A stretch of 64,000 nt of DNA from an uncultured Acidobacteriia bacterium (GTDB taxonomy: Bacteria; Acidobacteriota; Terriglobia; Bryobacterales; Bryobacteraceae), in contig CAIKMJ010000008.1 of the NCBI GenBank assembly GCA_903828455.1, positions 62,001 to 126,000 on the forward strand, in the 5' to 3' direction. Shown piece by piece: positions 2,945 to 26,381 of the stretch. The notes below the pieces were generated by a model. The model did not search any database, had not been told where the DNA came from, and saw only the letters and a list, made by a program, of their open reading frames with translations. The translations under genes and the position numbers were made by a program. Numbering within the stretch: position 1 is the first letter of the stretch; the number at the start of each line of letters is the position of its first letter.

Positions 2945-3038
2945 TGGCGGAAGCCAGTGGGGGTCGAACCCACCCGCGGCAAATCAGCCGCACGCCGGGT
3001 TTGAAGTCCGGGCCCGGCACCGGCCAGGATTGGCTTCC
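2945..3038 (-). tRNA. selC: tRNA-Sec (selenocysteine), anticodon TCA
   Basis: A 94-nt cloverleaf including an encoded CCA. The acceptor stem has 8 bp (GGAAGCCA with TGGCTTCC), the D stem 6 bp, the T arm is GTGGG-TTCGACC-CCCAC, and there is a long variable arm with a GCGGC/GCCGC stem. The anticodon loop is CTTCAAA with anticodon TCA at 3002-3004, which reads UGA. The long acceptor and D stems plus the extra arm are hallmarks of bacterial tRNA-Sec and exclude an ordinary serine or leucine tRNA. The innermost anticodon-stem pair appears as A.C rather than A-U. No selA, selB or selD gene lies in the window. The tRNA sits 37 bp downstream of the PEP-CTERM gene on the same strand. Confidence 0.9.
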
Positions 3039-13232: not shown

Positions 13233-14078
13233 TTATGGGTCAAGAGCCGTCCCGCTCTCTCCGACCGCTTCCGGCAGGCGGCGAACTTTGATCGCCAGCG
13301 CAAGCGTGGCGGCAAGTGTGAGGGCACCGGTCACCGTGTGTGCGGACGTGGCGATGATCTGAATCGCGGGGTCGATATCGAGCGACTGCAGGATCAATAC
13401 GGAAAATCCCAGCAGCATCTGCACGGCAATCAGAATGGCGAGCAGGATTCCCGCCGGCTGCAGTTCCGGATGTTCCTCGCGAAGGATCAGCGTCAATGCC
13501 ACGGCCAGAAACAGCGCCGTGACGAGCGCCCAGATGATGTGCGGAGCAGCCTCGACCGCACCATGCCGGTGCGCCGCACCGAGTGCCACCTGGGAAAGGA
13601 CTACGGCAGGACTCGCCGTGGCAAGAAATCGCACCCGAGACGCGCTTTCCGGATTTAGCGGGGCGGGCCCGCGAAGGGCGCTCGTGGCGGTCAGAATTGC
13701 AATCGCGACCACTCCGGAAAAGAAGAGTTGCGCGAGCAAAGCGTGCAGAATTCGCATTGGCGCCGGAACCGTATCGCCGACAAAATACGGCAGACCCTGA
13801 ATGAGGCTGACCGCGAATGTTGCCCATCCCAGTTGACGGAGCCGCACTCGATCCCCCCCGCGCCAAAGTCCGATCGCGAGGCCCCCGACCAGTAGCGTTA
13901 AAGCGGCTCCGAGCCATGGGTGCCATTGCCCCAAATCATACAGAGGCCGATTCTCGTTACTGGTTACCGCCGGTCCGGTGACCAATAGCGCAGCGGTTAG
14001 TAAGACCACCAGGATGGCGTATCGATGCATCCGGCGGGCATGGGTTTCTTCCAAAGTCACAACTTGATTGTCAGCCAT
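13233..14078 (-). CDS. ctaA: Heme A synthase-like membrane protein (COX15/CtaA family)
   Basis: Membrane protein of 281 residues with about eight transmembrane helices. Conserved histidines sit at helix ends as in CtaA: HPWLGAALTL, HALLAQLFFSG, ALGAAHRHGAVEAAPHIIWAL and HTVTGALTL, which in the family ligate heme. CtaA converts heme O to heme A for aa3-type oxidases. Neither oxidase subunits nor ctaB lie nearby, so the product may serve an oxidase elsewhere or a relative of CtaA with a different role. ATG at 14078. The gene diverges from the electron-transfer operon across 294 bp, in which I see no clear promoter or other gene. Confidence 0.75.
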   Translation of the reverse strand: MADNQVVTLEETHARRMHRYAILVVLLTAALLVTGPAVTSNENRPLYDLGQWHPWLGAALTLLVGGLAIGLWRGGDRVRLRQLGWATFAVSLIQGLPYFVGDTVPAPMRILHALLAQLFFSGVVAIAILTATSALRGPAPLNPESASRVRFLATASPAVVLSQVALGAAHRHGAVEAAPHIIWALVTALFLAVALTLILREEHPELQPAGILLAILIAVQMLLGFSVLILQSLDIDPAIQIIATSAHTVTGALTLAATLALAIKVRRLPEAVGESGTALDP

Positions 14079-14372
14079 TTCGCGAAAGCTTTCGGGTGTC
14101 CTGCAAGCGACTGGCCGAATGAGTGTGCGCAATTCGCAATACGAATTCAGATAACGAGGCCTCTTCGTAGCCTCGGCCGGAGTTGTCATTGCTGCGCGGC
14201 TTGCCGCACTCGAGGCCGCGGATGCGTGCGCCGTTTCGCGCATGGCGCTGCGGAACGGCCGAAAAAGCCACGCAATCGTAACAATTCGTTGGCTTTAATG
14301 CCTACGTCCTTCCTGGCCTCGCATTTGCCCTGCTTTCTTCACTGCTTCGTATCAGGAAAGGCTTTGAGGGCA

Positions 14373-16031
14373 ATGAGAATGAATACCGCGGCACGGACTC
14401 TGCTGAAACTGTTCACGGCATCGATCGTTCCGGCATGCTTGCTGGTTCTGCTCCCGCAAAAAGGCGCGGCGATTCCGGCATTCTCCCGCATGTACTCGAC
14501 CTCCTGCATGACGTGCCACGTGGACTTCCCCAAACTAAACGACTTCGGCAAGGCTTTTAAGGACGCCGGCTTCAAATTTCCAAAAGATGACGAAGACCAG
14601 CTCAAAGTGGCGCCGGTCATGTTGGGCGCGGATGCGCAAAAGCAGAATTTCCCCAACTCCGTCTGGCCTGGTTCGATTCCGGGCATGCCCCCCATCGGTC
14701 TGCGTTTCAACACCTTCTTCCAGCTGACCGGAGCGAACCGGAACAACTTCAACTCTCTGACTGCGCCCGGCAGCGTGCCGCAGGTCATTCCCGGCGCGGA
14801 TTTTTCGAGCGGTTACTTCAGCATCTTCACCGCAGGGAACTTCGGCAGCGGAATCGCTTTCTGGGTGGATGACGACATCAGCGTGGGCGGCAGCAACGGC
14901 GCGGGCGGGCTCGGCGACGCGTACCTGAAGTTCGTCAACGTGAGCCGTTTTCTGAAGCTGCCCACCGATTCGCTCTCCGTTCGGGTCGGACAGTTCGAAC
15001 TCGACCTGCCGGTGACGCAGGCGCGCAGTTACAATCTCAGCCCGTACGACATCTATCAGCAGGCCAACATTGGCGCGGTGAATTCCATGGTGTCGCTGCA
15101 GCAGAACGTGGCGAATCAGTTCACGTTCGCCAGCGCGGCGAAAGGAGTTGAACTGAGCGGTGGGCATCAGTATGGCGGGTATCATTACTCGCTGGCGGTG
15201 GTCGATCAGAATACCGCGGCAATCGATCAGTCCTCTAATTCCAGTCCCTACGTGCCGTCTGCTACCGGCGGCGCAAGCGGCGGGGCCGGCTTCGGCTCCA
15301 GTTCGCCCTTCAAGACGTTCTATGGGCGCTACTCTTACCGGTTCAACCTGGAGCACGATTCCGAAAGCCGGCACGCCGTGCAGGCCGCCGGAACCACGGG
15401 GCCGCACGACCATACCTCGCTGACATTCGGCTCGTTCTACCTGTACGGGAAATCGCTGCAGCAGTTTTCCGGAGCCACCGTTTCCGGATCCAGTCTGGCG
15501 CTCAGCGCACAGGAGCCGTACTACCGCGCGGGTGGAGACTTCAATTTCAACTACCGCCGACTCAATGCCTACGGCGTATTTATGCACGGCCGCGATCAGA
15601 ACCTGCTGCCGATCGACGGCGGCGGCAACCTGATTCCTCTGCCGCTCGCATCGGAGGGCCCGCTGCCTGTCGGCTTTCTTAAGAGCGTTCCGGCCAGTTT
15701 CAGCGGCGGTTTTGTCCAGACGGACTTTATGATCTTCCCGTGGATGATGGCCATCGGCCGCTGGGATGGCGTGAACTCCACGGCGGACCGAATCAACGGC
15801 CTTGCGCTGTCAACCGCCACGCCGTTCTTCGCGCCGCTTCACTCCACGCGGAACCGCTTCACTCCGGGTGTGCAGATCCTGATTCATCCGAATATTAAGT
15901 TCTCGTTCGAATATCAGTTCCGGCCGCAGCAAACTACGGTCATCGAAGCCGACGGGAAGACCGGGAACCTTGTCGCGGTCAATCCGTTCCGGGTGAACAC
16001 AGCGCTGTTCGGCCTTGAATTTGTTTATTAG
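14373..16031 (+). CDS. Cyc2-like fused monoheme cytochrome c-outer membrane porin
   Basis: Predicted outer-membrane protein of 552 residues. After a signal peptide (about 1-33) the mature N terminus reads AIPAFSRMYSTSCMTCHVDF, with one heme c site (C45, C48, H49), then PKLNDFGKAFKDAGFKFP. The rest (about 80-552) is a beta barrel: alternating polar/hydrophobic strands such as GLRFNTFFQLTG, FYGRYSYRFNLEH and IKFSFEYQFRP, ending in the barrel-type aromatic terminus FVY. A single N-terminal heme fused to a porin is the architecture of Cyc2, the Fe(II)-oxidising protein of acidithiobacilli and Zetaproteobacteria. A broader family of similar cytochrome-porins of unknown substrate exists. GAGGG precedes the ATG at 14373. 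First gene of the nine-gene operon. Confidence 0.75.
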   Translation: MRMNTAARTLLKLFTASIVPACLLVLLPQKGAAIPAFSRMYSTSCMTCHVDFPKLNDFGKAFKDAGFKFPKDDEDQLKVAPVMLGADAQKQNFPNSVWPGSIPGMPPIGLRFNTFFQLTGANRNNFNSLTAPGSVPQVIPGADFSSGYFSIFTAGNFGSGIAFWVDDDISVGGSNGAGGLGDAYLKFVNVSRFLKLPTDSLSVRVGQFELDLPVTQARSYNLSPYDIYQQANIGAVNSMVSLQQNVANQFTFASAAKGVELSGGHQYGGYHYSLAVVDQNTAAIDQSSNSSPYVPSATGGASGGAGFGSSSPFKTFYGRYSYRFNLEHDSESRHAVQAAGTTGPHDHTSLTFGSFYLYGKSLQQFSGATVSGSSLALSAQEPYYRAGGDFNFNYRRLNAYGVFMHGRDQNLLPIDGGGNLIPLPLASEGPLPVGFLKSVPASFSGGFVQTDFMIFPWMMAIGRWDGVNSTADRINGLALSTATPFFAPLHSTRNRFTPGVQILIHPNIKFSFEYQFRPQQTTVIEADGKTGNLVAVNPFRVNTALFGLEFVY

Positions 16032-16041
16032 AAAGGGTTCC

Positions 16042-16629
16042 ATGTCGATCACTTCGAAACTGCTTACGACTCTCGCCGTACTCTCCGCCACTGCCGCCTT
16101 GTTGTCGGCAGGTGAAATCAGCGGGAAAGTTACCGCCGGAAAGGGCGCCTCTGTGGTTTACGTAGAGGCCGTGGCGGGAAAGACCTTTCCTGTTCCCGAT
16201 AAGCCTTTGCAGATGGACCAGAAGTCGCTGCTGTTTCAGCCGCATCTGCTCGTTGTGCCCGTTGGCGCCACCGTGGAGTTTCTGAACAGCGATAAGGTGG
16301 CCCACAATATCTTCTGGCCGGCTATCAACGGCAACAAGAAGCTCGGTCACAACATGGGCACGTGGCCAACCGGCGAGAAGCGTGCCTTTAAGTTCGAAAC
16401 AACCGGGATCGTCCCGCTGCTGTGTAATGTGCATCCGGAAATGTCCGGTTACATCATTGTTAGTCCGACGCCATTCTATGCGGAAAGCGACGCAGCAGGG
16501 GCCTTCAGGATAACCAACGTACCGGACGGCACTTATACAGTTACGGCCTGGCACGAAGGATACAAGACTCAGTCGAAGCCTGTAACGGTAAGTGGTTCCG
16601 CTACAGCTGACTTCACGCTGGCCAAGTAA
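16042..16629 (+). CDS. Periplasmic type-1 copper protein (cupredoxin) with carboxypeptidase-regulatory-like domain
   Basis: Exported protein of 195 residues with a signal peptide (about 1-23). The cupredoxin domain has the complete type-1 copper ligand set: H88 in SDKVAHNIFW, then C128, H131 and M134 in LLCNVHPEMSGY. Residues 143-195 (ESDAAGAFRITNVPDGTYTV...) form a small carboxypeptidase-regulatory/transthyretin-like domain common in surface or periplasmic proteins. It starts 10 nt after the cytochrome-porin stop, so the two are co-expressed. By position it is a candidate soluble shuttle between the outer-membrane heme and the inner-membrane complex, analogous to rusticyanin. Sequence gives no redox potential, and similarity to rusticyanin itself is not evident. 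Confidence 0.82.
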   Translation: MSITSKLLTTLAVLSATAALLSAGEISGKVTAGKGASVVYVEAVAGKTFPVPDKPLQMDQKSLLFQPHLLVVPVGATVEFLNSDKVAHNIFWPAINGNKKLGHNMGTWPTGEKRAFKFETTGIVPLLCNVHPEMSGYIIVSPTPFYAESDAAGAFRITNVPDGTYTVTAWHEGYKTQSKPVTVSGSATADFTLAK

Positions 16630-16656
16630 GTCCCGGCGCAATCGGGAAACGCCATC

Positions 16657-18576
16657 GTGCTGAACCGCTTCGAAAGCAAGAGAGTCGACCGGGACTGGCT
16701 GGAAAGCAACTTTCCGTGCATGATGGCCTGTCCTGCCGGCACCAACGCCGGCCGGTACGTGGCGCTGATCGCAGAAGGCCGGTTCGAAGAAGCGTATCGC
16801 TATGCGCGCGATCCCAATCCAATGGCCAGCATCTGCGGGCGTGTCTGTGCGCACCCCTGCGAAACAGCCTGCCGTCGCGGGGCCATCGACGAACCGATCT
16901 CGATTCGGGCACTGAAGCGTTTTCTGACCGAGCGTTACGGTCCCGAGTCGCGCCAACCGCTTGAGCCGCGGAAGGCGCCGGTTGGCGCGATGCCGTTCCG
17001 TGTTGCCATCGTCGGCAGCGGTCCTGTGGGGCTCTCGGCAGCTCACGATCTGGCGCTGCTTGGCTACACCGTCACGATTTTTGAAGCCGCTCCGGTTGCT
17101 GGAGGAATGCTCAGCCTCGGGATTCCCGAATATCGGTTGCCGCGCAGCGTTGTGGAGGCGCAGATTCGGGAGATTCTGGATGCGGGCGGGGTCGAGCTGA
17201 AACTCAACCAGGCCGCGGGGCGCGATTTCACGATACGCAGCCTGCGTGAACAGGGTTACGATGCGGTGATTCTCGCAGTAGGAGCGCATCGCAGCCGCGA
17301 CCTTTCCATTCCCGGCGTCGATCTGGACGGCGTTCACAAAGGCATCGACTTCCTCCTCAATGCCAATCTCGGCTACCGGTTCGACATCGGCAAGAAGGTC
17401 GTCGTCATCGGCGGCGGCAACGTCGCAATGGACGTGGCGCGTTCAGCCGCCCGAGAAGTGTTGAAACAGCATCAACCCGGGGACGCGGTACCCAACAACG
17501 CAAACCTGACTGCTCTTGCGACGCACGAGATGATGGACATCTCGCTTTCAGCCCTGCGGCTCGGCGCTCGCGAGGTCAGCATAGTTTGCCTCGAACGCCG
17601 CGACGAAATGCCCGCTGCTCATGAGGAGATTGAAGAGGCCGAGGTCGAGGGGATCCACATGCGCGATGGCAGTGGCCCGAAGCGGGTGATCGGCCGGGAC
17701 GGTAAGGTGATTGGCCTCGAAACAGTCCGCACCCGATCGGTATTCGATGCGTCGGGCCGCTTCAATCCCACGTTCGAGGAAAACAGCGAATCGGTCATCG
17801 AGTGCGACACCGTCATTCTGGCCATCGGGCAAGCCCCGCGACTCGACTTTTTGTCGCCCGAAGACGGTGTCGAAATCTCCGCCCGCGGCCTGATTCACGT
17901 GGATCGCGACACCTTGATGACCTCCGCTCCGGGCGTCTTTGCCGGCGGAGACTGCGCGTTCGGCCCCCGCCTCATCATCGACAGCGTGGGCGACGGCAAG
18001 CGCATTGCTGCCTCCATCGATCGTTACCTCACGGGTCGCGAACACAGTCTTCCGGAGATCGAAGTGGAACTCCTCGAACACCACCGGATGTTCGGCGATT
18101 ACATGAACATCGGCCGTCAGGCCGTTCCCATGGTCCCGCTTGAGCGCCGCACCGGCGTTACCGAAGTCGAAGCCGGCTACGACGAAGCCGCCGCCATGCG
18201 GGAGGCGCGTCGCTGCCTGCGTTGCTGGATCAACACTGTCTTCGAGGGCAACGAACCGGATGGCTCGCAGTGCATCCTGTGCGGCGGCTGCGTGGATATC
18301 TGCCCGGAAAGCTGCATCCAGCTGGTGCCGCTTGAAAGCGTGCAGTTTCCCGAAGACGTATTGCGCGAGATTCAGTCGTCGCCATCTCTCTTCCATGTGG
18401 AACTGGATGACGTCGCGGCCGGGGAACTGGGGCAGATCACCGGCTCCGTGATGTTGAAGGATGAAACCCGCTGCATTCGCTGCGGTTTGTGCGCCGAGCG
18501 CTGCCCGGTCGGGATGATCACGATGGAGGCGTACTCACTGCGTCCGGTCGATTCGGGAGGAGTGGAGGCGAGATGA
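16657..18576 (+). CDS. GltD-like FAD/NAD(P) oxidoreductase with N- and C-terminal iron-sulfur domains
   Basis: Cytoplasmic flavoprotein of 639 residues, longer than glutamate synthase small subunit (about 470-490). The N terminus has the GltD cysteine cluster (CMMACPAGTN; ICGRVCAHPCETACRRG, about 21-74). FAD-binding VAIVGSGPVGLSAAHDLA is at about 115, NAD(P)-binding VVVIGGGNVAMDVARSA at about 248, and the FAD closing motif TSAPGVFAGGDCAFGP follows. The C terminus adds a two-cluster ferredoxin domain (CILCGGCVDICPESC and CIRCGLCAERCPVGM). GTG start at 16657. It overlaps the Rieske gene by ATGA, so it is probably a subunit or partner of the Rieske/cytochrome b complex that links quinones or ferredoxin to NAD(P)H. 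No gltB is present. Confidence 0.85.
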   Translation: MLNRFESKRVDRDWLESNFPCMMACPAGTNAGRYVALIAEGRFEEAYRYARDPNPMASICGRVCAHPCETACRRGAIDEPISIRALKRFLTERYGPESRQPLEPRKAPVGAMPFRVAIVGSGPVGLSAAHDLALLGYTVTIFEAAPVAGGMLSLGIPEYRLPRSVVEAQIREILDAGGVELKLNQAAGRDFTIRSLREQGYDAVILAVGAHRSRDLSIPGVDLDGVHKGIDFLLNANLGYRFDIGKKVVVIGGGNVAMDVARSAAREVLKQHQPGDAVPNNANLTALATHEMMDISLSALRLGAREVSIVCLERRDEMPAAHEEIEEAEVEGIHMRDGSGPKRVIGRDGKVIGLETVRTRSVFDASGRFNPTFEENSESVIECDTVILAIGQAPRLDFLSPEDGVEISARGLIHVDRDTLMTSAPGVFAGGDCAFGPRLIIDSVGDGKRIAASIDRYLTGREHSLPEIEVELLEHHRMFGDYMNIGRQAVPMVPLERRTGVTEVEAGYDEAAAMREARRCLRCWINTVFEGNEPDGSQCILCGGCVDICPESCIQLVPLESVQFPEDVLREIQSSPSLFHVELDDVAAGELGQITGSVMLKDETRCIRCGLCAERCPVGMITMEAYSLRPVDSGGVEAR

Positions 18577-19067
18577 GCGAAAACGAAGATGCCATAACAA
18601 AGGAAACAATCCCCGATGGCAATACACGCCGTGATGCTTTCGTGAAGATAGGAGTCGGCTCGCTGTGCGTCGCCTGTTCGGGAGCCGCCGTATTCGGCTA
18701 TGACTTTCTTTCGCCAAATGTTCTTTACGAGCCCTCGCCGGTAGCCAACGCCGGAAAGATCGGGAAGTTTCCACCGGATAGTGTGACGCAGGATGCTCAG
18801 TCGGGCATTTACATTGTTCACGCAGCCGAAGGTATCTACGCCATGTCGGCAGTATGTACTCATCTGGGTTGTCTGACGGCGTGGAAACCGGAACTGGGAA
18901 TTATTGCGTGTCCTTGTCACGGCAGTAAGTTCGGGCGGGACGGCGTCAAACTCGAAGGTCCGGCGCCGCGCCCGCTCGAATGGCTGAAGGCCTCGATCAG
19001 CGACGAGGGCGATCTTCTCGTCGACCGTTCCGCTCCTCTGTCCGAAAAACAATTTGTGAGAACCTGA
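18573..19067 (+). CDS. Rieske [2Fe-2S] protein of a cytochrome bc-type complex
   Basis: Membrane-anchored iron-sulfur subunit of 164 residues. An N-terminal segment with a twin-arginine-like NTRRDAFVK and a hydrophobic anchor (about 25-45) precedes the Rieske fold. Cluster ligands are C95/H97 in CTHLGC and C113/H116 in CPCHGSKF, with C100 and C115 placed for the stabilising disulfide seen in high-potential quinol-oxidising Rieske proteins. It receives electrons from quinol at the Qo site. The start overlaps the flavoprotein stop, and the stop is 1 bp before the cytochrome b gene. Length matches the short Rieske subunits of b6f-like complexes. Confidence 0.93.
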
Positions 19068-19068
19068 C

Positions 19069-19815
19069 ATGGCCGCCACTCTGAGTCAACAGCTGACAGC
19101 TCTGCGCAGGACGCGCGTCTGGCGTTCTGTCTTCCGCGGCGGAAACGGGACCAGCAATCTGGACCGCGCTTTGGCTGTTCAGCAGAACTTATTTCTGCAT
19201 CTCAGCTCTGTCAAAGTAAGGAAACGCTCCCTGGCATTCCGCGTCACGTGGTTTCTGGGCACCTTGTGCATGGGCGCTCTGATGATTCTGGTCGCAACCG
19301 GAATTCCGCTGATGCTTTACTATCATCCGTCGGTTCCGCAGGCGTATGCGGATATGAAGGATCTGCAATCGGTCGTTTCGGCGGGTGTGTTTCTGCGCAA
19401 TCTGCATCGCTGGTCGGCGCACGCGATGGTCCTGCTGGTCTTCGCCCATATGTTCAAGGTGTTCTATCGGGGGGCTTACAGGCCGCCGCGGGAATTCAAC
19501 TGGGTTGTCGGCGTTATCCTGCTGATTGTCACTTTGCTGCTGAGTTACACGGGTTATCTGCTGCCGTGGGACCAGCTGGCGTTTTGGGCAATTACTGTTG
19601 GCTCGAACTTACTTTCCTCGGTGCCGGTGATCGGGCCGAAAGTAAGGTTTCTCATGCTCGGAGGCAACACAGTCAACGCCAATGCGTTGTTGCGGTTCTA
19701 CGTTCTGCACTGCGTCATTCTGCCACTTACGGCGGCGACGTTCGTCGCTGTTCACTTCTGGCGGATCCGCAAGGACGGCGGAATCTACCCGGGAAAGGAT
19801 CACAAACATGCCTGA
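19069..19815 (+). CDS. Cytochrome b, N-terminal part (b6-type split cytochrome b)
   Basis: Inner-membrane diheme subunit of 248 residues with four transmembrane helices. Heme ligand pairs are H113/H127 in helix 2 ([16 protein letters not shown]; spacing 14) and H214/H229 in helix 4 (spacing 15). The 15-residue spacing in helix 4 and the split from the C-terminal half are features of cytochrome b6 rather than of mitochondrial-type cytochrome b. [13 protein letters not shown] marks the Qo-proximal loop. It oxidises and reduces quinones, probably menaquinone in this phylum. The stop codon lies within a 15-bp tandem duplication that also holds the start of the next gene. Confidence 0.93.
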
Positions 19816-19834
19816 TCCAAACATGCCTGATTCC
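19804..19834 (+). repeat. 15-bp tandem duplication spanning the cytochrome b stop and next start
   Basis: Two copies of AAACATGCCTGATYCC (15 and 16 nt). The first holds the stop TGA (19813-19815) of cytochrome b and the ATG (19808) of the following gene. The second repeats both in the same frame, giving the latter protein the N terminus [10 protein letters not shown]. Confidence 0.85.
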
Positions 19835-20533
19835 AACGATTTTATTGCCGGAATGAATTCGGACAGCCGCAAGTCGCCCGTGCGCGTCGCCTTTGTCACA
19901 CGGCGCACTTCGGCGCAGGTAAAGGCCCGGGATGACGGCGGCACAGTAATGGTTTTTCCCGAAGCGCTCTTCCGCGGCGCCGTCGCGATCGAATTGCTGC
20001 TCCTCGTGCTCGTAGTGTTTTCCCTGTTTTGGGACGCGCCGCTCGAAGAACTGGCCAATCCGCTGCTCACTCCCAATCCCGCCAAGGCGCCCTGGTACTT
20101 TCTGGGACTGCAGGAGTTACTGCATTACTTCCCGCCGGTCGTGGCGGGCGTGCTGATTCCAGGACTTGTAGTTACCGCGCTGATCGCGATCCCATATTTC
20201 CAGATCAACATCGAAGGCGAAGGCTTATGGTCGCGGAATCGTACATTGCGTCTGCGGATGGTCAGAATCACGCTGGTCCTTTTCATATTGTTCCTTGCCT
20301 CGTTTCATGTCTGGGTAGCGCTGGCGCCAACGCTGCTGATGGTCGGGCTGATGCTTTATTCCGCGACTGAGCGCCACGACGCCGGGCGCTTTCATCGCTG
20401 GCTGGCGTCGAAGCCGCTGAGCTTCTGGATCATGTCCTGGTTTCTGCTTTCGTCGGCCGTACTGACGCTGATCGGAACATTCTTCCGCGGCCCCGGCTGG
20501 TCCTTTGTCATGCCGTGGAGCGGACAGATATGA
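19808..20533 (+). CDS. Cytochrome b, C-terminal part (subunit IV-like)
   Basis: Inner-membrane subunit of 241 residues with an N-terminal soluble region of about 50 residues, then four hydrophobic segments. The Qo-site region reads [21 protein letters not shown], where APWY stands in place of the PEWY motif of most bc complexes. This variant is familiar from b6f-like complexes of several non-photosynthetic phyla. Start at 19808, with a second in-frame ATG at 19823 created by the 15-bp duplication; either could be used. It overlaps cytochrome b by 8 nt and the octaheme cytochrome by 4 nt (ATGA). With Rieske and cytochrome b it forms the quinol-oxidising core. Confidence 0.9.
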
Positions 20534-22593
20534 GTGTTCGCGGGAGAATCGCGGCCGCGAAAGCCTTTCTGTTTGGAGACAGCGCCCGCGCGTTTGGAAC
20601 GCTCAGTCTTGCACTGCTCGCGCTTCTCACGGTTGTTCCTGCGCGTGATTACTTTCGTGACTGGCGCGGCGTTCAGAAACAGTATCTTCAGCTGATTCAC
20701 GGCCGAAACGATGCTCCCGCGCTGACCCGGCACTTTCAGGGCGGCGTGCAGCAGATCTGGCTTCCCGAAATCGGCGTGGTGGATCGCTGCACGACCTGCC
20801 ATGTCGGGCTGAAAGAGTCGACGCTGACTGACGTGCGAACGCAGCCTTTCCGGCCGCACCCGCCGGTGCCGCACTCGCTCACCGAGTTTGGCTGCGTACT
20901 TTGCCATCGGGGCCAGGGCACGGCGACGAGCGTTGCCGACGCGCACAACAGCAGCAGTTCATGGGAAGAGCCGATTCTTCCGGCGCGGTATCTGGAGTCC
21001 GGCTGCGGGCAATGCCACATACAGCCGCTGACCGGAACGCCGAAACTGAATCAGGGCCGGGAACTTCTTGCGCGCTACGGCTGCGTCCGCTGTCACACGA
21101 TGAGGGCGCCCGATGGCACGAAGCGAACGGGGACGGACGAGCCCCCTTCGCTCGAACACATTGCTGACAAGACGTCGCGGGAGTGGATAGCCGCGTGGCT
21201 CAGGGATCCGCAGGCGTACGCGGGTTCGGCAACGATGCCGAATTTCCAGCTGAAGGACGATGAGATTCGTGATATCGCGGCATTTCTTATAGCGCAGAGC
21301 CAGCCTTATCGCAGCCAAAAGGCCTCCGAGCCCGCGCCGGTGCCTTCGCAGGACGATGCCGTGATTCAGCAGGGCGCAAGCCTGTACGGGGAATCGTTCT
21401 GTGCGTCGTGCCACGCGGTGCAGAATGCCGCCGGACTGCTCGTGGGAGGCAATCTGGGGCCTGAACTGACGCGCGTCGGTTCCAAAGTGAAGATCGACTG
21501 GCTGGCCGACTGGCTGCGCAATCCGGCCATTTACGACCCCGCCAGTGCCATGCCGCATTATCGTTTCGATGCGAAGCAGATCGGGCTGCTGGTGACATTT
21601 CTCTCCAGTAAGACCGACTCCGATTTCACCGGCACCGCGAAAGCCGCGGCGGCGGAACCAAAACAGATCGAGCGCGGCAGAATACTTGTCATCGAACGCG
21701 GCTGCGCGTCATGCCATGCAATCAACGGGCTGAAAGCACCCGAAGACTTCGCGCCGGAACTGACTGAAGTCGGCAGCCGGCCTCTCAGCAGAATTCTGTT
21801 TGCGCCCGGAGTGCCGAATACGCTGCCCGACTACATTGCCGCCAGGATTCGCGATCCCCGCTCCTTCGGCGACACTCTGAAGATGCCGCGCTTTTCTCTG
21901 CCTCAGCCGCAGGTCGATGCCATTGTGACCGCATTGCTGGCGCAAACTGCACGAGCCGAAACGCTTCCGGCATCAATGCGCATACCGGCACGGAAGCCTT
22001 CGGATTACCGTCCGGCGGGCAGGGCGGGCAAGTTGATGGATGAAATGCGCTGCTTCAGTTGCCACATCATAAACGGCCGCGGCGGCACCATGGCGCCGGA
22101 ACTGACTTACGAGGGAACTTCCGTGCAGCGCGCCTGGCTGGTGAACTTCCTGAAGAATCCCAACACCCTGCGCCCTGCCTTGATTCGCCGTATGCCGCGG
22201 TTTAACGTTACTGACGCAGAGGCCAATACTCTGGCCGACTACATCATGACGGCCTGGCAGACGCCGGACTTCGAAGGCGACGCGTCGGACGATCTCCGTT
22301 TTACAGCCGCCGATGTGCAGTCCGGCAGGGAACTGTTCTATAACAAGTACGCCTGCCAGTCCTGCCATATCATCGATCAAAGTAAAGACAAGGGCTATGT
22401 GGGGCCGACTCTGACCCAGGTCGGATCGCGGCTCACCGCGCCGTGGATTCTGCACTGGCTCCGGAATGCGCAAACGCTGCGGCCCGGTTCGCTGGAACCC
22501 GTCTGGAATATGAACGATGCGGATGCGAGGTCAATCACTGCCTTTCTGATGGCGCAGAAGGGTGCACCGGTGAAGGAGGCGGCCCGCAAATGA
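20530..22593 (+). CDS. Membrane-anchored octaheme cytochrome c
   Basis: Protein of 687 residues with an uncleaved N-terminal anchor (about 22-38) and a periplasmic body with eight CxxCH sites at about residues 87, 122, 159, 185, 291, 392, 508 and 609. The last five are in repeated monoheme cytochrome c modules of about 100 residues. Each module has a G-x-x-L/Y entry helix, a P-E-L-T-x-V/E-G segment and a distal methionine in M-P-x-F/Y (TMPNF, AMPHY, KMPRF, RMPRF). The first three or four hemes form a different, tighter N-terminal cluster. By position it replaces cytochrome c1 as electron acceptor of the Rieske protein. It could pass electrons to or from the copper protein and the lipoprotein cytochrome. 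Confidence 0.9.
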   Translation: MSVRGRIAAAKAFLFGDSARAFGTLSLALLALLTVVPARDYFRDWRGVQKQYLQLIHGRNDAPALTRHFQGGVQQIWLPEIGVVDRCTTCHVGLKESTLTDVRTQPFRPHPPVPHSLTEFGCVLCHRGQGTATSVADAHNSSSSWEEPILPARYLESGCGQCHIQPLTGTPKLNQGRELLARYGCVRCHTMRAPDGTKRTGTDEPPSLEHIADKTSREWIAAWLRDPQAYAGSATMPNFQLKDDEIRDIAAFLIAQSQPYRSQKASEPAPVPSQDDAVIQQGASLYGESFCASCHAVQNAAGLLVGGNLGPELTRVGSKVKIDWLADWLRNPAIYDPASAMPHYRFDAKQIGLLVTFLSSKTDSDFTGTAKAAAAEPKQIERGRILVIERGCASCHAINGLKAPEDFAPELTEVGSRPLSRILFAPGVPNTLPDYIAARIRDPRSFGDTLKMPRFSLPQPQVDAIVTALLAQTARAETLPASMRIPARKPSDYRPAGRAGKLMDEMRCFSCHIINGRGGTMAPELTYEGTSVQRAWLVNFLKNPNTLRPALIRRMPRFNVTDAEANTLADYIMTAWQTPDFEGDASDDLRFTAADVQSGRELFYNKYACQSCHIIDQSKDKGYVGPTLTQVGSRLTAPWILHWLRNAQTLRPGSLEPVWNMNDADARSITAFLMAQKGAPVKEAARK

Positions 22594-23330
22594 AACGAAC
22601 GGGAATGCGGGCGTCGTTCCTGGTGTTGTGCGCGGCACTGCTGACCATCAGCGCATGCACGAGGCACTCCGGCGCTCCCGGCGTGACGCCCAGGGCATTC
22701 GGCACCGCATTAGTTTCGGTAAGCGGAGAAAAGCAGTTCGCCGGCGTAGGATCGCAACTGGAACAACCGCTCGTCTTGCAGGTGAACGACGCGAAGGGCG
22801 TCGCGGTGGCCGGTGCGGTGGTTCGGTTATCGGCGGCGGGCGGTGCCTTTGCTACTCCGCGTGAGGGACTCACCGGACCGGACGGGCAGTTCACGGCCAC
22901 CATCACTCTCGGCGGTGCGGGCGGGCATTATCAAATTGTGGCTTCGAGCCCGACGGCGTCCGGCCAGCAGATATTCATGCGCGTCGATGAAAGCGCGCTC
23001 GGCTATCAGGAGATGCTGGGCGCAAAGCTGAATGAGATTCACTGTATCCGCTGTCACGATCCGGAATCCACGGCCGAGCGGGTTTCGAACATGGATAACC
23101 TGACGGCGAAGCCCCACGCGTTTACCGACGGCGCTGTTCTGAATCCAATGTCTGCAGCAGATCTGACGTCGATTATTAGTCACGGCGGAGTAGCCGTGAA
23201 CAAATCCGCCGAGATGCCTCCCTATGGGAGTATGCTGACGAAACAGGAGATCGCCGCGCTGGTGGCGTTTCTCCGGGCCGTAGCAGATCCGCCGTATCTG
23301 GCGCAGGGAGTCAACTATGCGAGTAACTAA
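22590..23330 (+). CDS. Lipoprotein with Ig-like domain and monoheme cytochrome c
   Basis: Predicted lipoprotein of 246 residues: signal peptide with lipobox TISAC (lipidated C23), an Ig-like domain of the bacterial Big type (about 38-130, VLQVNDAKGVAVAGAVVRLS...GPDGQFTATITLGG), and a C-terminal cytochrome c domain with CIRCH at 152-156 and a possible distal Met in SAEMPPYGSML. The lipid anchor would hold the heme at the outer or inner membrane. It overlaps the octaheme gene by ATGA. The last codons and stop lie in a 16-bp tandem duplication that also provides the start of the next gene. Confidence 0.82.
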   Translation: MKRTGMRASFLVLCAALLTISACTRHSGAPGVTPRAFGTALVSVSGEKQFAGVGSQLEQPLVLQVNDAKGVAVAGAVVRLSAAGGAFATPREGLTGPDGQFTATITLGGAGGHYQIVASSPTASGQQIFMRVDESALGYQEMLGAKLNEIHCIRCHDPESTAERVSNMDNLTAKPHAFTDGAVLNPMSAADLTSIISHGGVAVNKSAEMPPYGSMLTKQEIAALVAFLRAVADPPYLAQGVNYASN

Positions 23331-23347
23331 GTATGCGAGTAACTAAG
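23316..23347 (+). repeat. 16-bp tandem duplication creating a stop/start junction
   Basis: Two perfect copies of TATGCGAGTAACTAAG. Copy one encodes the C terminus YASN and stop of the lipoprotein cytochrome. Copy two, read in another frame, supplies ATG and the first codons (MRVTK) of the downstream gene. Nothing separates the copies. Confidence 0.95.
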
Positions 23348-24628
23348 CCAATCGTGGAGCGCGCCGCAATTGCCCTGCTTGCGCTGGCATTCTCCGCGCC
23401 CGCGCAGGTATTGGCGCCGGCCGAGATCAGCGATCCGCAAATGCGTGAGCTTCAGCAGAAATATCTGGCGGATCTGAAGCTCATAACGCAGGCCGCTGCC
23501 ATGCACAGCTTCCCGTTCCATTTTTACTTCAGCCGCACTCTGGATCTGCAGGAGAAGGATCAGGCCTCCAGCGATCAGCGGTCCATCCAGTTCGATCGCT
23601 ATAAAAACCAGGTGGTGCTCAAGATCACCGGCAACTATTTCGCTTCTTACTCCACCGAACTGATGAACTCAGAAGACCGCGCGCGCCAGACTTATCGAGA
23701 CGTGATGATGCCGCTGTTGCAGAGCCTTCCGCCTGCGCTGCTGAAGACCGATGAACTGCAGGCATTCGCATTTGAGATCTCTCATCACGTGCGAAAAAAA
23801 GTTCTGGGCGTTTCTTCCGAGGGCGTGGAAAACGTAGTGCTGATTCTTCCCCGCGTTTCCGCCGCTCGTTTCGCGCAGGCGGCAAGCACCTCCGCACAGG
23901 AAGCCGCGCTGGCGGAAGGTGAGGTGTTTCTCAATGCCGCGCCGCTGTCGCTGTGGGCGCATCCGCAGCAGATGACCTCGTCCGCCAGCGGAGCGGCCTT
24001 CGTGGCGAAAGCGCTCACGGCAACTCCCGCGGCTTCGCCGGGTTTGATGAGAGACGGCGCTCCGCAGTCCACCGCAAAGGCTGCGCCGATCGCAACTCCG
24101 TCAGCACCTGCTCCGGTACGCGACACCTCGCCTGACGCGATTCGCGGCGTTCAGAAGAGCTATCAGGAAAGCCTCGACCGCATGGTCCAGGATCTGAACA
24201 CACAGGCACATTTCGTGCGTTACGCGCCGCCGGCATTTATTCCGTTCCACAAGGGCCTGTTCCTGCAGCTATCAGTTACCACCACCCTGCCGGACGGAGC
24301 CGGCGGTTCGCAATATCGGCTGGCTGCGCTCGCGTTCGACCAGCACATTGCGCATCTGATTCGCCCGGTGCTTGCGGCGCTCAAAGAAGATCGCGGTGAC
24401 TTCGACGGAGTCAACTTCAGTTCTTCGATTCGATTGGGCGGCGCGACGGCAACCGACAGCGGGGCGACCGCGGTGGAGTTTATTTTCCCGCTTCACATGC
24501 TGCGCAGTTACGAGCAGTTCGATTGCACCGGGCAGGACCTCATCGACACCGGCTATGTCTTGATTAACGGAGAACGAGTCAGTCTGAATCTGCAGGCGGC
24601 CGAAACCGGATTCCAGATCAGACCGTAA
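23333..24628 (+). CDS. Secreted protein of unknown function, last gene of the electron-transfer operon
   Basis: Exported protein of 431 residues with a signal peptide (about 1-24, ending SAPAQ). I do not recognise a family. It appears to hold two related alpha/beta regions (about 35-170 and 270-430) joined by an Ala/Pro/Ser-rich linker (about 215-265). The regions share traits: AAAMHSFPFHFYFSRTLDLQ versus NTQAHFVRYAPPAFIPFHKG, and a late segment ending in FIFPLHMLRSYEQFDCTGQD. There is no heme site. It starts 2 bp after the preceding stop and is clearly in the operon, so a periplasmic assembly or structural role for the electron-transfer system is a fair guess, not more. Confidence 0.65.
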   Translation: MRVTKPIVERAAIALLALAFSAPAQVLAPAEISDPQMRELQQKYLADLKLITQAAAMHSFPFHFYFSRTLDLQEKDQASSDQRSIQFDRYKNQVVLKITGNYFASYSTELMNSEDRARQTYRDVMMPLLQSLPPALLKTDELQAFAFEISHHVRKKVLGVSSEGVENVVLILPRVSAARFAQAASTSAQEAALAEGEVFLNAAPLSLWAHPQQMTSSASGAAFVAKALTATPAASPGLMRDGAPQSTAKAAPIATPSAPAPVRDTSPDAIRGVQKSYQESLDRMVQDLNTQAHFVRYAPPAFIPFHKGLFLQLSVTTTLPDGAGGSQYRLAALAFDQHIAHLIRPVLAALKEDRGDFDGVNFSSSIRLGGATATDSGATAVEFIFPLHMLRSYEQFDCTGQDLIDTGYVLINGERVSLNLQAAETGFQIRP

Positions 24629-24656
24629 ACCGTCGCGTTGGATGCTAGGGTGAAGA

Positions 24657-24731
24657 TGGAGCGGGAGACCGGGATCGAACCGGCGACGTTCAGCTTGGGA
24701 AGCTGACATTCTACCGCTGAATTACTCCCGC
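24657..24731 (-). tRNA. tRNA-Gly, anticodon CCC
   Basis: A 75-nt cloverleaf with encoded CCA. The acceptor stem is GCGGGAG/CTCCCGC, the D arm has AGCGGTAGAAT, the anticodon stem-loop is TCAGC-TTCCCAA-GCTGA with CCC at 24697-24699, and the T arm is GCCGG-TTCGATC-CCGGT with one imperfect pair. It lies between the electron-transfer operon and the convergent ferredoxin reductase gene. It would decode GGG codons. Confidence 0.93.
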
Positions 24732-24787
24732 TCAGGGCCGCTGCGGCGGTCGGCCAACTTCATCATATACCAGCGCCGTGCAAAACG

Positions 24788-26026
24788 TCACGTACGCGAC
24801 GCCGCAGCCGTCTTCAGATCGAATCCCGGATCGCCCGCCTCCGCCCCCGTGATCTCCACCCCGGCCACCAGCAGCTTCCGCGCCACAAGATGATCGCCCG
24901 GCCGGTTGATCGAATCCACCGCCAGCAGCTTGCCTTCGCGGAAATAGAATACGGAAAACCTTCGCGACGCAGCCTCGCCGCGCACCACCACCTCATCGAA
25001 GCCCGAAGAAAGGCCCGCCATCTGGAGCTTCAGATCGAACTGATCGGTCCAGAACCATGGCACTGCGTCGTAGGGCGCGCGCTTGCCGGCGATTGTCGCG
25101 GCCACGCAGCGCGCCTGATCCACACCGTTCTGCACGGACTCAATGCGCGCCAATCCCCCCGCAAAACGGTTCGGGTGCCACGCGCAGTCCCCGATCGCGT
25201 AAATCCCCGGCGCGCCGGTCTCCAGATATTCATCGACTCGGATCCCGTTGCCGACCTCCAGTCCGGCGCGGGCGGCCAACTCCATGTTCGGCACCACGCC
25301 GATCCCCACCACCACCAGCTCCGCCGCATACATGCTGCCGTCGCTCAGGTGAGCAAACTCCACCGACGCTGCACCGCGCAACTCCGTCACCGCCGCGTTG
25401 AAGGCAAAGCGCACGCCGCGCGCCTCATGTGTCTCCTGAAAAAACGCAGAAATCACGGGCGCCACCACACGCGGCATCACGCGCGACTGCGCCTCCACCA
25501 CCACCACCTCGCGCCCCTGCGCCGCGGCGATAGCAGCCATCTCGAGCCCGATAAATCCGCCTCCGATGATCACAACTCTGCGGGCCGCTTCGAGCCGCTC
25601 CTGGATCGCCACGGCCTCATCCACGCTTCGCAGATAGCAAACGCCGGGCAGTTCCGCGCCGGGCACCGTGAGCCGGCGGTTGCGGGCTCCGGTGGCGAGG
25701 ATGAGGGAATCGAACGGAAGCCTTTCGCCCGAGGCAAGAACCACCGCGCGACCCGCCGTCTCAATCGCCTCGATCCGCTCACCCATTCGCAGTTCGATGC
25801 GCTGCGCTTCATAGAACGACTCAGGCCGCAGGGGAAGGGAATCGGGATCCATCTTCCCCGCCATAAAATCCTTCGAAAGCGGCGGGCGCTGGTAGGGAAT
25901 GTGGGGCTCGTCGCCGATCAGCGTAATCGGCCCGTCGTAGCCTTCCGTCCGCAGTGAGAAGGCGGCCTGAAATCCGGACTGGCCGGCTCCGGCGATCACA
26001 ACTCCCGCGCGGCCCGCGCCGTCCAT
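24788..26026 (-). CDS. NAD(P)H-ferredoxin reductase of the putidaredoxin/rubredoxin reductase type
   Basis: FAD-dependent pyridine nucleotide-disulfide superfamily enzyme of 412 residues, usual length for this class. FAD motif VVIAGAGQSGFQAAFSLR is at the N terminus, the conserved PYQRPPLSK follows, NAD motif VVIIGGGFIGLEMAAIAA is at about 150, and the second FAD motif GIYAIGDCAWHPN is at about 275. The reductase C-terminal domain follows (VPWFWTDQFDLKLQMAG). It has no redox-active CxxC, so it is a one-electron ferredoxin reductase rather than a disulfide reductase. It starts 1 nt after the stop of a [2Fe-2S] ferredoxin gene; together they form a NADH-to-ferredoxin chain for an oxygenase or P450. 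None is encoded in the window. Confidence 0.88.
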   Translation of the reverse strand: MDGAGRAGVVIAGAGQSGFQAAFSLRTEGYDGPITLIGDEPHIPYQRPPLSKDFMAGKMDPDSLPLRPESFYEAQRIELRMGERIEAIETAGRAVVLASGERLPFDSLILATGARNRRLTVPGAELPGVCYLRSVDEAVAIQERLEAARRVVIIGGGFIGLEMAAIAAAQGREVVVVEAQSRVMPRVVAPVISAFFQETHEARGVRFAFNAAVTELRGAASVEFAHLSDGSMYAAELVVVGIGVVPNMELAARAGLEVGNGIRVDEYLETGAPGIYAIGDCAWHPNRFAGGLARIESVQNGVDQARCVAATIAGKRAPYDAVPWFWTDQFDLKLQMAGLSSGFDEVVVRGEAASRRFSVFYFREGKLLAVDSINRPGDHLVARKLLVAGVEITGAEAGDPGFDLKTAAASRT

Positions 26027-26027
26027 C

Positions 26028-26381
26028 TTACTGTTGATTCGGGGGCGTGGTGACGCGCAGCCCGTTGAGCGCTTTGGTGAGTTTCAACTGGCACGCCAGA
26101 CGGCTGTTCGCCTGTCTGGGCGCGGCGGTGTTGCCCAGCATTTCTTCTTCATTTTCGGCAATGGGCTCAAGCTGACCCAGAAACGCCTCGTCCACATAGA
26201 CGTGGCACGTGGCGCACATGCAAGATCCGCCGCACTCGGCCACAATGCCTTCAATGTTGTTGGCGACGGCCCCCTCCATCACCGTATTCTCAACGGGCAC
26301 GGCAACCTCGCGCACCGCGCCGTTGTGCGAAACGTAGGTGACCGAAACGGTTTCCTTTGGTTTTTTGCTGAAGAAGCTCAT
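26028..26381 (-). CDS. Adrenodoxin-type [2Fe-2S] ferredoxin
   Basis: Soluble ferredoxin of 117 residues. Cluster ligands are in CGGSCMCATCH (C-x5-C-x2-C arrangement) plus the distal Cys in SRLACQL, the standard adrenodoxin/putidaredoxin set. The acidic helix after the cluster loop (IAENEEEMLG) is the usual docking surface for reductase and P450. The N terminus has a basic start (MSFFSKKPKE). Spacing to the reductase is 1 nt, so the pair is one functional unit. An upstream membrane-protein pair 62 bp away on the same strand probably belongs to the same transcript. Confidence 0.92.
   Translation of the reverse strand: MSFFSKKPKETVSVTYVSHNGAVREVAVPVENTVMEGAVANNIEGIVAECGGSCMCATCHVYVDEAFLGQLEPIAENEEEMLGNTAAPRQANSRLACQLKLTKALNGLRVTTPPNQQ

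Follow-up and report, generated by a model that had tools for sequence, protein, structure and literature searches.

An acidobacterial operon with a proposed link between an NAD-linked Rieske/cytochrome b complex of the anammox kind and a Cyc2-type outer-membrane conduit

Introduction

Except in a few model bacteria, little is known of the way in which electrons pass from outer-membrane conduits to the pools of quinone and NAD. The question is raised by an operon of an uncultured member of the Bryobacteraceae (Acidobacteriota; assembly GCA_903828455.1), which lies in the 64,000-nucleotide stretch of contig CAIKMJ010000008.1 analysed here (positions 62,001 to 126,000 of the forward strand; hereafter the window). 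Nine plus-strand genes at 14373-24628 encode an outer-membrane cytochrome-porin fusion (CytPor), a cupredoxin, a GltD-like FAD/4Fe-4S protein, a Rieske protein, the two halves of a split cytochrome b, an octaheme cytochrome c, a lipoprotein-type cytochrome c and an exported protein of unknown function (Table 1); family scans agree with the labels that these genes had been given in a preliminary description of the window. We report that the gene set is a real, conserved operon, and that it appears to join two known kinds of system, an NAD-linked Rieske/cytochrome b complex of the anammox type and a Cyc2-type outer-membrane conduit.

Results and Discussion

Conservation of the operon

The genes are tightly packed, as the preliminary description had reported, and all nine lie in the span given above with no gap exceeding 27 nt. 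The cupredoxin gene is separated from that of CytPor by 10 nt and from the GltD-like gene by 27 nt, the Rieske gene from the N-terminal half of cytochrome b by 1 nt, and the lipoprotein gene from the ninth gene by 2 nt. Five ATGA-type overlaps had been claimed; we count four overlaps, three of them 4-nt ATGA junctions (GltD/Rieske, C-terminal half of cytochrome b/octaheme and octaheme/lipoprotein), while the two cytochrome b halves overlap by 8 nt.

The same gene order was sought in relatives, using 40 places from genomes of the phylum, chosen mostly for their high scores and covering no more than 20 kb each, and 80 named loci taken from at least 80 matches. Removal of six loci whose GltD was identical to another left 114 of these 120, and 83 of them gave a full view, for which the sequence had to reach at least 3.5 kb upstream and at least 7.5 kb downstream from the middle of GltD. 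The octaheme type (eight CxxCH motifs, above 700 bits) was found in 70 of the 83. All 70 carried GltD, Rieske and cytochrome b genes in this order together with the lipoprotein cytochrome, and a cupredoxin gene was located within 2 kb upstream in 69 (farther away in L126). A Cyc2-like cytochrome-porin was present in 68, upstream in 57 and downstream in 11. The preliminary description had raised the possibility that nearly all relatives lack the porin and copper genes, and among these octaheme loci, found through GltD, this is not so. Since the core recurs in every one of the 70 relatives, its gene order reflects more than chance, and both a chance neighbourhood and a passenger reading were rejected for the core. 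The remaining 13 full-view loci have a more distant GltD and zero to seven haems in their best match to the octaheme protein.

Conservation extends to other Acidobacteriota, 27 of the 40 phylum loci being of the octaheme type and each from a separate genome. Going by the names of their records, octaheme loci also occur in Ignavibacteriales (L139), Bacteroidetes (L129), Marinimicrobia (L126 and L128), Glassbacteria (L151) and, without a linked porin, Desulfobacterales (L143). Among the matches listed, the closest named relatives of the GltD-like protein (about 64-81% identity) belong to Bryobacterales, Acidobacteriaceae and other Acidobacteriota. The cultured carriers are Geothrix campi SG10 (L130) and G. 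terrae SG184 (L133), counted in the 70 through their duplicates L047 and L048, and the isolate names of many carriers refer to bog, palsa or fen. The operon is probably functional.

The predicted Rieske/cytochrome b complex

The anammox gene clusters Kuste4569-4574 and Kustd1480-1485 encode a b6-like cytochrome b, a subunit IV, a hexa- or octaheme cytochrome c and an NAD(P) oxidoreductase, and it has been proposed that bifurcation in the resulting complexes yields NAD(P)H (PMC12954380; here and below, published systems are described from the available parts of the papers cited). Like them, the window brings together in one gene set a split b6-like cytochrome b with a subunit IV-like protein, an octaheme cytochrome c (hexa- or octaheme there) and an FAD/4Fe-4S NAD(P) oxidoreductase. 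When compared with solved structures, the window Rieske protein found its best PDB matches in 9rk4 and 9rk3 (E 3.8e-23 and 6.2e-22), which are the anammox Kuenenia Rieske proteins Kuste4569 and Kustd1480, followed by a b6f Rieske protein at 1.3e-17.

Residue conservation was determined on an alignment of 86 sequences, the window and 85 loci. The Rieske ligands were invariant in all 86, as was the serine of the CHGS motif. The tyrosine linked to redox tuning was replaced by phenylalanine in 85 of 86, and Kustd1480 likewise has phenylalanine at this position (PMC12954380). For the N-terminal half of cytochrome b the best PDB matches were cytochromes b6, and its haem-b histidines 113, 127, 214 and 229 were kept in 86, 86, 85 and 86 sequences, respectively. 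The APWY Qo motif of the C-terminal half was conserved (over 80 sequences). This half gave a weak match to ExtQ, and the octaheme protein, which has eight CxxCH motifs and cytochrome c domains, gave weak matches to ExtS and QcrC, all below cut-off.

The GltD-like protein has the domains Fer4_20, Pyr_redox_2 and Fer4, with NF009410 as its nearest NCBIfam model, below cut-off. In GltD proteins of the octaheme type, glutamate occupies the place where three solved enzymes have the second arginine of YRR in 77 of 85 sequences, the other eight being seven that the pattern did not match and one mis-hit. By the Rossmann rule, this presumably hints at NAD(H) rather than NADP. A profile built from the window protein and 14 relatives matched best to 9bov/9bp5 in the PDB, and then to 9n5u and 8oh5. 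The anammox authors name 9bp5 as a structural homologue of Kuste4570 (PMC12954380), so one solved homologue is common to the GltD profile and Kuste4570.

The predicted outer-membrane conduit

CytPor (AIPAFSRMYSTSCMTCHVDFPKL) contains a single CxxCH. It matched no Pfam or NCBIfam family at E <= 0.001, and its sequence profile searched against PDB sequences gave a chance-level match at best. An alignment of the window protein with 26 of 41 candidate relatives yielded an AlphaFold2 model that forms a beta-barrel; its confidence is moderate overall (mean predicted local distance difference test score, pLDDT, 63.7) and poor around the haem. Out of 873 PDB matches to this model, 250 had E <= 0.001, and the best 50 were nearly all outer-membrane porins and channels, including many OmpF structures and two entries named as artificial metalloproteins. 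The fused cytochrome-porin Cyc2 (Keffer 2021) is described as a 16-stranded porin resembling OprO/OprP (PMC8406198); neither of these two was among the best 50 of the 873 matches to our moderate-confidence model.

The published Cyc2 motif consists of AXPXFAR[QK][TY], the part called unique to Cyc2, followed by CXXCH and PXL (PMC8406198). CytPor shares with the Cyc2 proteins one N-terminal CxxCH and a PxL after the haem site (CMTCH-VDF-PKL, with PXL four residues downstream); it resembles them in an AxPxF-R-x-Y stretch and in a predicted porin barrel. Among relatives, 84 Cyc2-like N-termini were selected with a pattern looser than the published motif; 28 match all seven of its fixed positions, 42 match six and 14 match five. 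They fall into two types, both resembling the published motif: type A, that of the window, reads IPAF[AS]R.Y..(C..CH), and type B, found upstream or downstream in 23 of the 84 loci, reads PS[FY]ARQTG..(C..CH). When 13 genomes were searched with a type A profile, the best match was by coordinates the operon's own copy in 11, five of which carry further, weaker matches. In the window genome CytPor is the sole match to its own profile at E <= 1e-5.

The cupredoxin scored 24.9 bits against a cut-off of 21.2 for the Copper-bind family when scanned from 16036, and its CNVHPEM sequence is what we take to be a type-1 copper ligand loop. In four distant loci (L061, L062, L141 and L152) the place of the cupredoxin between the porin and GltD is taken by a monoheme cytochrome c some 140-160 aa long, as expected if this slot encodes a periplasmic carrier. 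A different layout, Rieske-b-heptaheme-...-GltD, was observed in L065, L067 and L069-L072. Extra genes in L067 encode COX1, a FixG-like protein and a P-type ATPase, while in L066 the complex is followed by genes for DsbD-like, COX1, FixO and FixG-like proteins; Pfam content was determined for L066 and L067, and L065 and L069-L072 were judged alike by the sizes of their open reading frames. Because cupredoxin and cytochrome c are swapped and oxidase genes occur in the sister clusters, the gene content suggests an NAD-linked core that remains constant and delivers its P-side output to a partner that can be exchanged. These part swaps support the wiring of the parts into one path.

Comparison with known systems

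The likeness to the anammox complexes has its bounds. No Cyc2-like porin or cupredoxin is named in the available part of their description, and Kuste4569-4574 adds a hydroxylamine-oxidoreductase-like octaheme protein (PMC12954380). With the Cyc2/rusticyanin/bc1 chain of Acidithiobacillus ferrooxidans the operon has in common an outer-membrane monoheme cytochrome-porin, a periplasmic type-1 copper protein, a Rieske/b complex and an NAD-related gene, sdrA of the pet operon (PMC10654088). In that organism the rus and pet operons are separate, a cytochrome c1 is used and NAD is reached via NDH-1 (PMC8790237), whereas in the window a single operon combines a split cytochrome b with an octaheme c and a module of the GltD kind. 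The parallel with the iron oxidisers drawn in the preliminary description holds for the list of parts; CytPor has a Cyc2-like N-terminus, and the gene order is conserved.

The extHIJKLMNOPQS cluster of Geobacter (selenite/tellurite) likewise combines an outer-membrane protein, a Rieske protein, cytochrome b (ExtP and ExtQ) and multiheme cytochromes c (PMC5877670). ExtP and ExtQ are the NCBIfam models nearest to the cytochrome b halves, and ExtS is among the better matches of the octaheme protein. Membership of this group was rejected, as the scores of 260.2, 49 and 93.3 bits fall short of the respective cut-offs of 290, 150 and 100. In Geobacter, ExtI is porin-like and stands outside the cluster's count of c-type cytochromes, ExtH is a rhodanese, and the available gene list includes no cupredoxin or NAD(P) gene (PMC5877670). 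No rhodanese match was found among the nine operon proteins, the part of the window that was scanned.

The preliminary description had supposed that the arrangement was not a described one. This does not stand for NAD(P)-linked Rieske/b complexes as such, which are known from anammox bacteria in the available part of PMC12954380; it stands for their combination with a Cyc2-like porin and cupredoxin, which was not found in a literature search of titles, abstract openings and passages, with preprints and most subscription journals outside its reach.

Host genomes

Oxidase and NDH-1 genes, a check that the preliminary description had proposed, were surveyed in 12 operon genomes including that of the window (4.40 Mb in 80 contigs, 98.6% complete, a figure that applies to this genome). 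The COX1 family, which also covers nitric oxide reductases, was present in 11 of the 12, and the NDH-1 49 kDa family, which also covers hydrogenase relatives, in all. NrfD was found in every genome and within 8 kb of COX1 in nine, a pattern that we take to be that of an alternative complex III beside an oxidase. In addition to two COX1-family genes and one NDH-1 49 kDa gene, the window genome has a second cytochrome b, and an NrfD gene lies some 5 kb from one of its COX1 genes. A RuBisCO large subunit, the carbon-fixation marker searched for, was not found in 11 of the 12 genomes and was present in one.

Because the genome also has NDH-1 and NrfD near COX1, the complex looks dedicated rather than a general complex III; the role of an ordinary complex III is unlikely given these genes and the second cytochrome b. 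The operon thus seems to specify an additional, dedicated complex, carried by hosts most of which are without RuBisCO.

Direction of electron flow

We put at about even the chance that the operon encodes an outward-wired Rieske/b complex, in which quinol is oxidised, electrons leave the cell and NAD forms a second branch, and we slightly favour this over inward flow because the hosts are mostly without RuBisCO and the sister clusters are paired with oxidases. The operon would specify a dedicated NAD(P)-linked Rieske/cytochrome b complex of the anammox kind, with the GltD-like module on the cytoplasmic side and with the cupredoxin and the Cyc2-like CytPor wiring it to the outside. Menaquinol would be oxidised at the Qo site. 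Its high-potential electron would pass from the Rieske protein through the octaheme c and the cupredoxin (or the lipoprotein c) to CytPor and an extracellular acceptor, for which Fe(III), Mn(IV) and humics are candidates. The low-potential electron would travel through the b haems and either return to quinone or, by bifurcation, enter the GltD-like protein and reach NAD+ by way of its iron-sulfur clusters and FAD. That the proteins form one path and that GltD docks on cytochrome b are, like the quinone type and the direction, what we infer from the gene set. The Cyc2-rusticyanin-bc1 chain of A. ferrooxidans has been proposed to run outward in Fe(III) reduction on H2 or sulfur, and Acidobacteria are listed among the acidophilic iron reducers (PMC7735108, PMC8790237).

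A more specific form of this proposal, which we regard as speculative and rather doubtful, is an outer-membrane-wired bifurcating complex in which loss of menaquinol's high-potential electron to the extracellular acceptor pays for the uphill reduction of NAD+ by the other electron. Extracellular respiration would then make NADH directly, without reverse complex I. The acceptor module would be interchangeable: a nitrite-linked octaheme protein (as proposed) in anammox bacteria, an oxidase in the sister clusters and a Cyc2-like porin here.

Inward flow is a real though lesser contender. Fe(II), Mn(II) or reduced humics would feed CytPor and the cupredoxin, and electrons would run through the octaheme/Rieske/b complex uphill to menaquinone and via GltD to NAD+, with a part going to an oxidase. 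The COX1-family genes in 11 of 12 hosts suit such a scheme, as does the small cytochrome c that replaces the cupredoxin in four loci, a swap similar to that between rusticyanin and Cyc1. The parts parallel Cyc2, rusticyanin, bc1 and the NADH-related sdrA of Acidithiobacillus (PMC10654088), and the Cyc2-type porins so far tested oxidise Fe(II) (PMC8406198). Against it, RuBisCO was not found in 11 of the 12 hosts, which makes it less necessary to obtain NADH uphill from an outside donor; oxidase genes accompany the complex in two sister clusters, which implies quinol oxidation; and one of the host genera, Geothrix, is counted among the Fe(III) reducers (PMC6344600). GltD-type enzymes can run in either direction, and the GltD-like protein might instead feed electrons from NAD(P)H to the b haems. 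The complex would then serve in detoxification or in balancing the redox state, as an NAD(P)H:quinone or NAD(P)H:extracellular-acceptor system. The nearness of the b halves to ExtP and ExtQ and of the octaheme protein to ExtS is in line with this, the ext genes having a suggested role in selenite and tellurite reduction (PMC5877670). We consider it improbable, as all three Ext models score below cut-off, the available list of the Geobacter cluster holds no NAD(P) gene (PMC5877670), NDH-1 is present in all 12 hosts, and the anammox authors judged NADH oxidation wasteful when NADH dehydrogenases do better (PMC12954380). Finally, GltD could be a co-transcribed passenger, for example a source of reductant for an unrelated cytoplasmic enzyme; the rest would then be an ordinary menaquinol:cytochrome c branch that has its outlet in the outer membrane. 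The missing haem-cN cysteine described below would fit such an arrangement, but it is very improbable: GltD adjoins Rieske in all 70 full-view octaheme loci across several phyla, the two genes overlap by 4 nt in the window, pairwise GltD distances track those of the other seven proteins over 52 loci (Spearman 0.76-0.89, shared descent not controlled for), and the anammox complexes contain a protein of the GltD-like kind (PMC12954380).

Returning to the outward-wired complex, several observations weigh against it. The direct comparison with the anammox complexes was one of Rieske proteins. At the position of the b6f haem-cN cysteine no cysteine was present in the aligned column in any of the 86 sequences; HMMER aligns the b6 cysteine with Phe62 of the window, and the column holds Tyr in 63 sequences, Trp in 12, Phe in 4, Ala in 4 and Gly in 3. 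Haem cN is modelled in the anammox complexes (PMC12954380), so that one centre of their path is absent here and the route from the b haems to GltD is less clear. CytPor, with AIPAFSRMY, keeps five of the seven fixed positions of the Cyc2 motif (PMC8406198), and is likened to Cyc2 by sequence and model; the Cyc2 proteins with measured activity work in the inward direction (PMC8406198). All loci were chosen by GltD similarity, so conservation was measured among GltD carriers. A linked Cyc2-like gene is missing in two of the 70 octaheme loci, L107 and L143: the type A profile search found no porin match in the genome of L107, and in that of L143 the best match lies on another contig, unlinked to the operon. 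Outside the octaheme type, a porin was seen in 3 of the 13 full-view loci, which are mostly without it. GltD itself is patchy. Of the 297 genomes sampled from the phylum, 76 gave a match at E <= 1e-80. Within the window's class it was matched in 11 genomes and in none of at least 18 others, and neither of the two sampled genomes of the window's own family has such a match. ExtP-type cytochrome b (E <= 1e-50) occurs in 186 of the 297, so many such cytochromes are without a close GltD.

If true, the outward-wired reading would carry the idea of quinol bifurcation to NAD(P)H, put forward for anammox bacteria, over to other phyla, and the operon would mark redox cycling of iron or humics in Acidobacteriota. 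As the whole set lies in one conserved operon that is also carried by the cultured G. campi and G. terrae, the question is testable by gene deletion.

Remaining genes and neighbourhood

Table 1. Genes of the operon, with window coordinates
Product	Coordinates	Strand	Families or motifs
CytPor: exported Cyc2-like monoheme c-type cytochrome fused to a predicted outer-membrane beta-barrel, 552 aa	14373..16031	+	
Periplasmic type-1 cupredoxin with C-terminal carboxypeptidase-regulatory-like domain	16042..16629	+	PF00127, PF13620
GltD/NfnB-like FAD/4Fe-4S NAD(P) oxidoreductase, 639 aa, GTG start	16657..18576	+	PF14691, PF07992, PF00037
Rieske 2Fe-2S protein	18573..19067	+	PF00355
Cytochrome b N-terminal half, b6-like, four haem-ligand His	19069..19815	+	PF00033
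Cytochrome b C-terminal half, subunit IV-like, Qo motif APWY	19808..20533	+	PF00032
Octaheme c-type cytochrome of the Rieske/b complex, likely periplasmic	20530..22593	+	eight CxxCH, cytochrome c domains
Monoheme cytochrome c, lipobox-like N-terminus, Big_1-like stretch	22590..23330	+	PF13442 above cut-off, Big_1 below
Exported protein of unknown function (ninth gene)	23333..24628	+	

The ninth gene is less constant than the rest of the set, occurring in just 26 of the 70 full-view octaheme relatives, and its product matched no Pfam or NCBIfam family at E <= 0.001. AlphaFold2 gave a confident alpha/beta model (mean pLDDT 83.0, predicted template modelling score 0.51), whose two halves show a similar strand-helix order. 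Foldseek found no PDB fold for it at E <= 0.001, the best E value being 0.0066.

Upstream of the operon, a divergent gene at 13233-14243 on the minus strand is weakly CtaA/COX15-like (26.2 bits against a cut-off of 29.9). Directly downstream and on the opposite strand lies a tRNA-Gly (ccc) at 24657-24731, and the minus-strand region 24788-26381 holds an FAD/NAD ferredoxin-reductase-like gene adjoining a 2Fe-2S ferredoxin-like gene, as judged from translations, a pair that resembles the electron supply of a monooxygenase. GC skew changes from positive to negative over the operon region (14000-26000). In four relatives (L079, L097, L098 and L144) a divergent cluster encoding an 11-haem and a 5- or 6-haem cytochrome stands beside the operon. 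Elsewhere in the window, ARAGORN called a selenocysteine tRNA (anticodon tca) at 2945-3038 on the minus strand, which suggests a selenoprotein system in the host.

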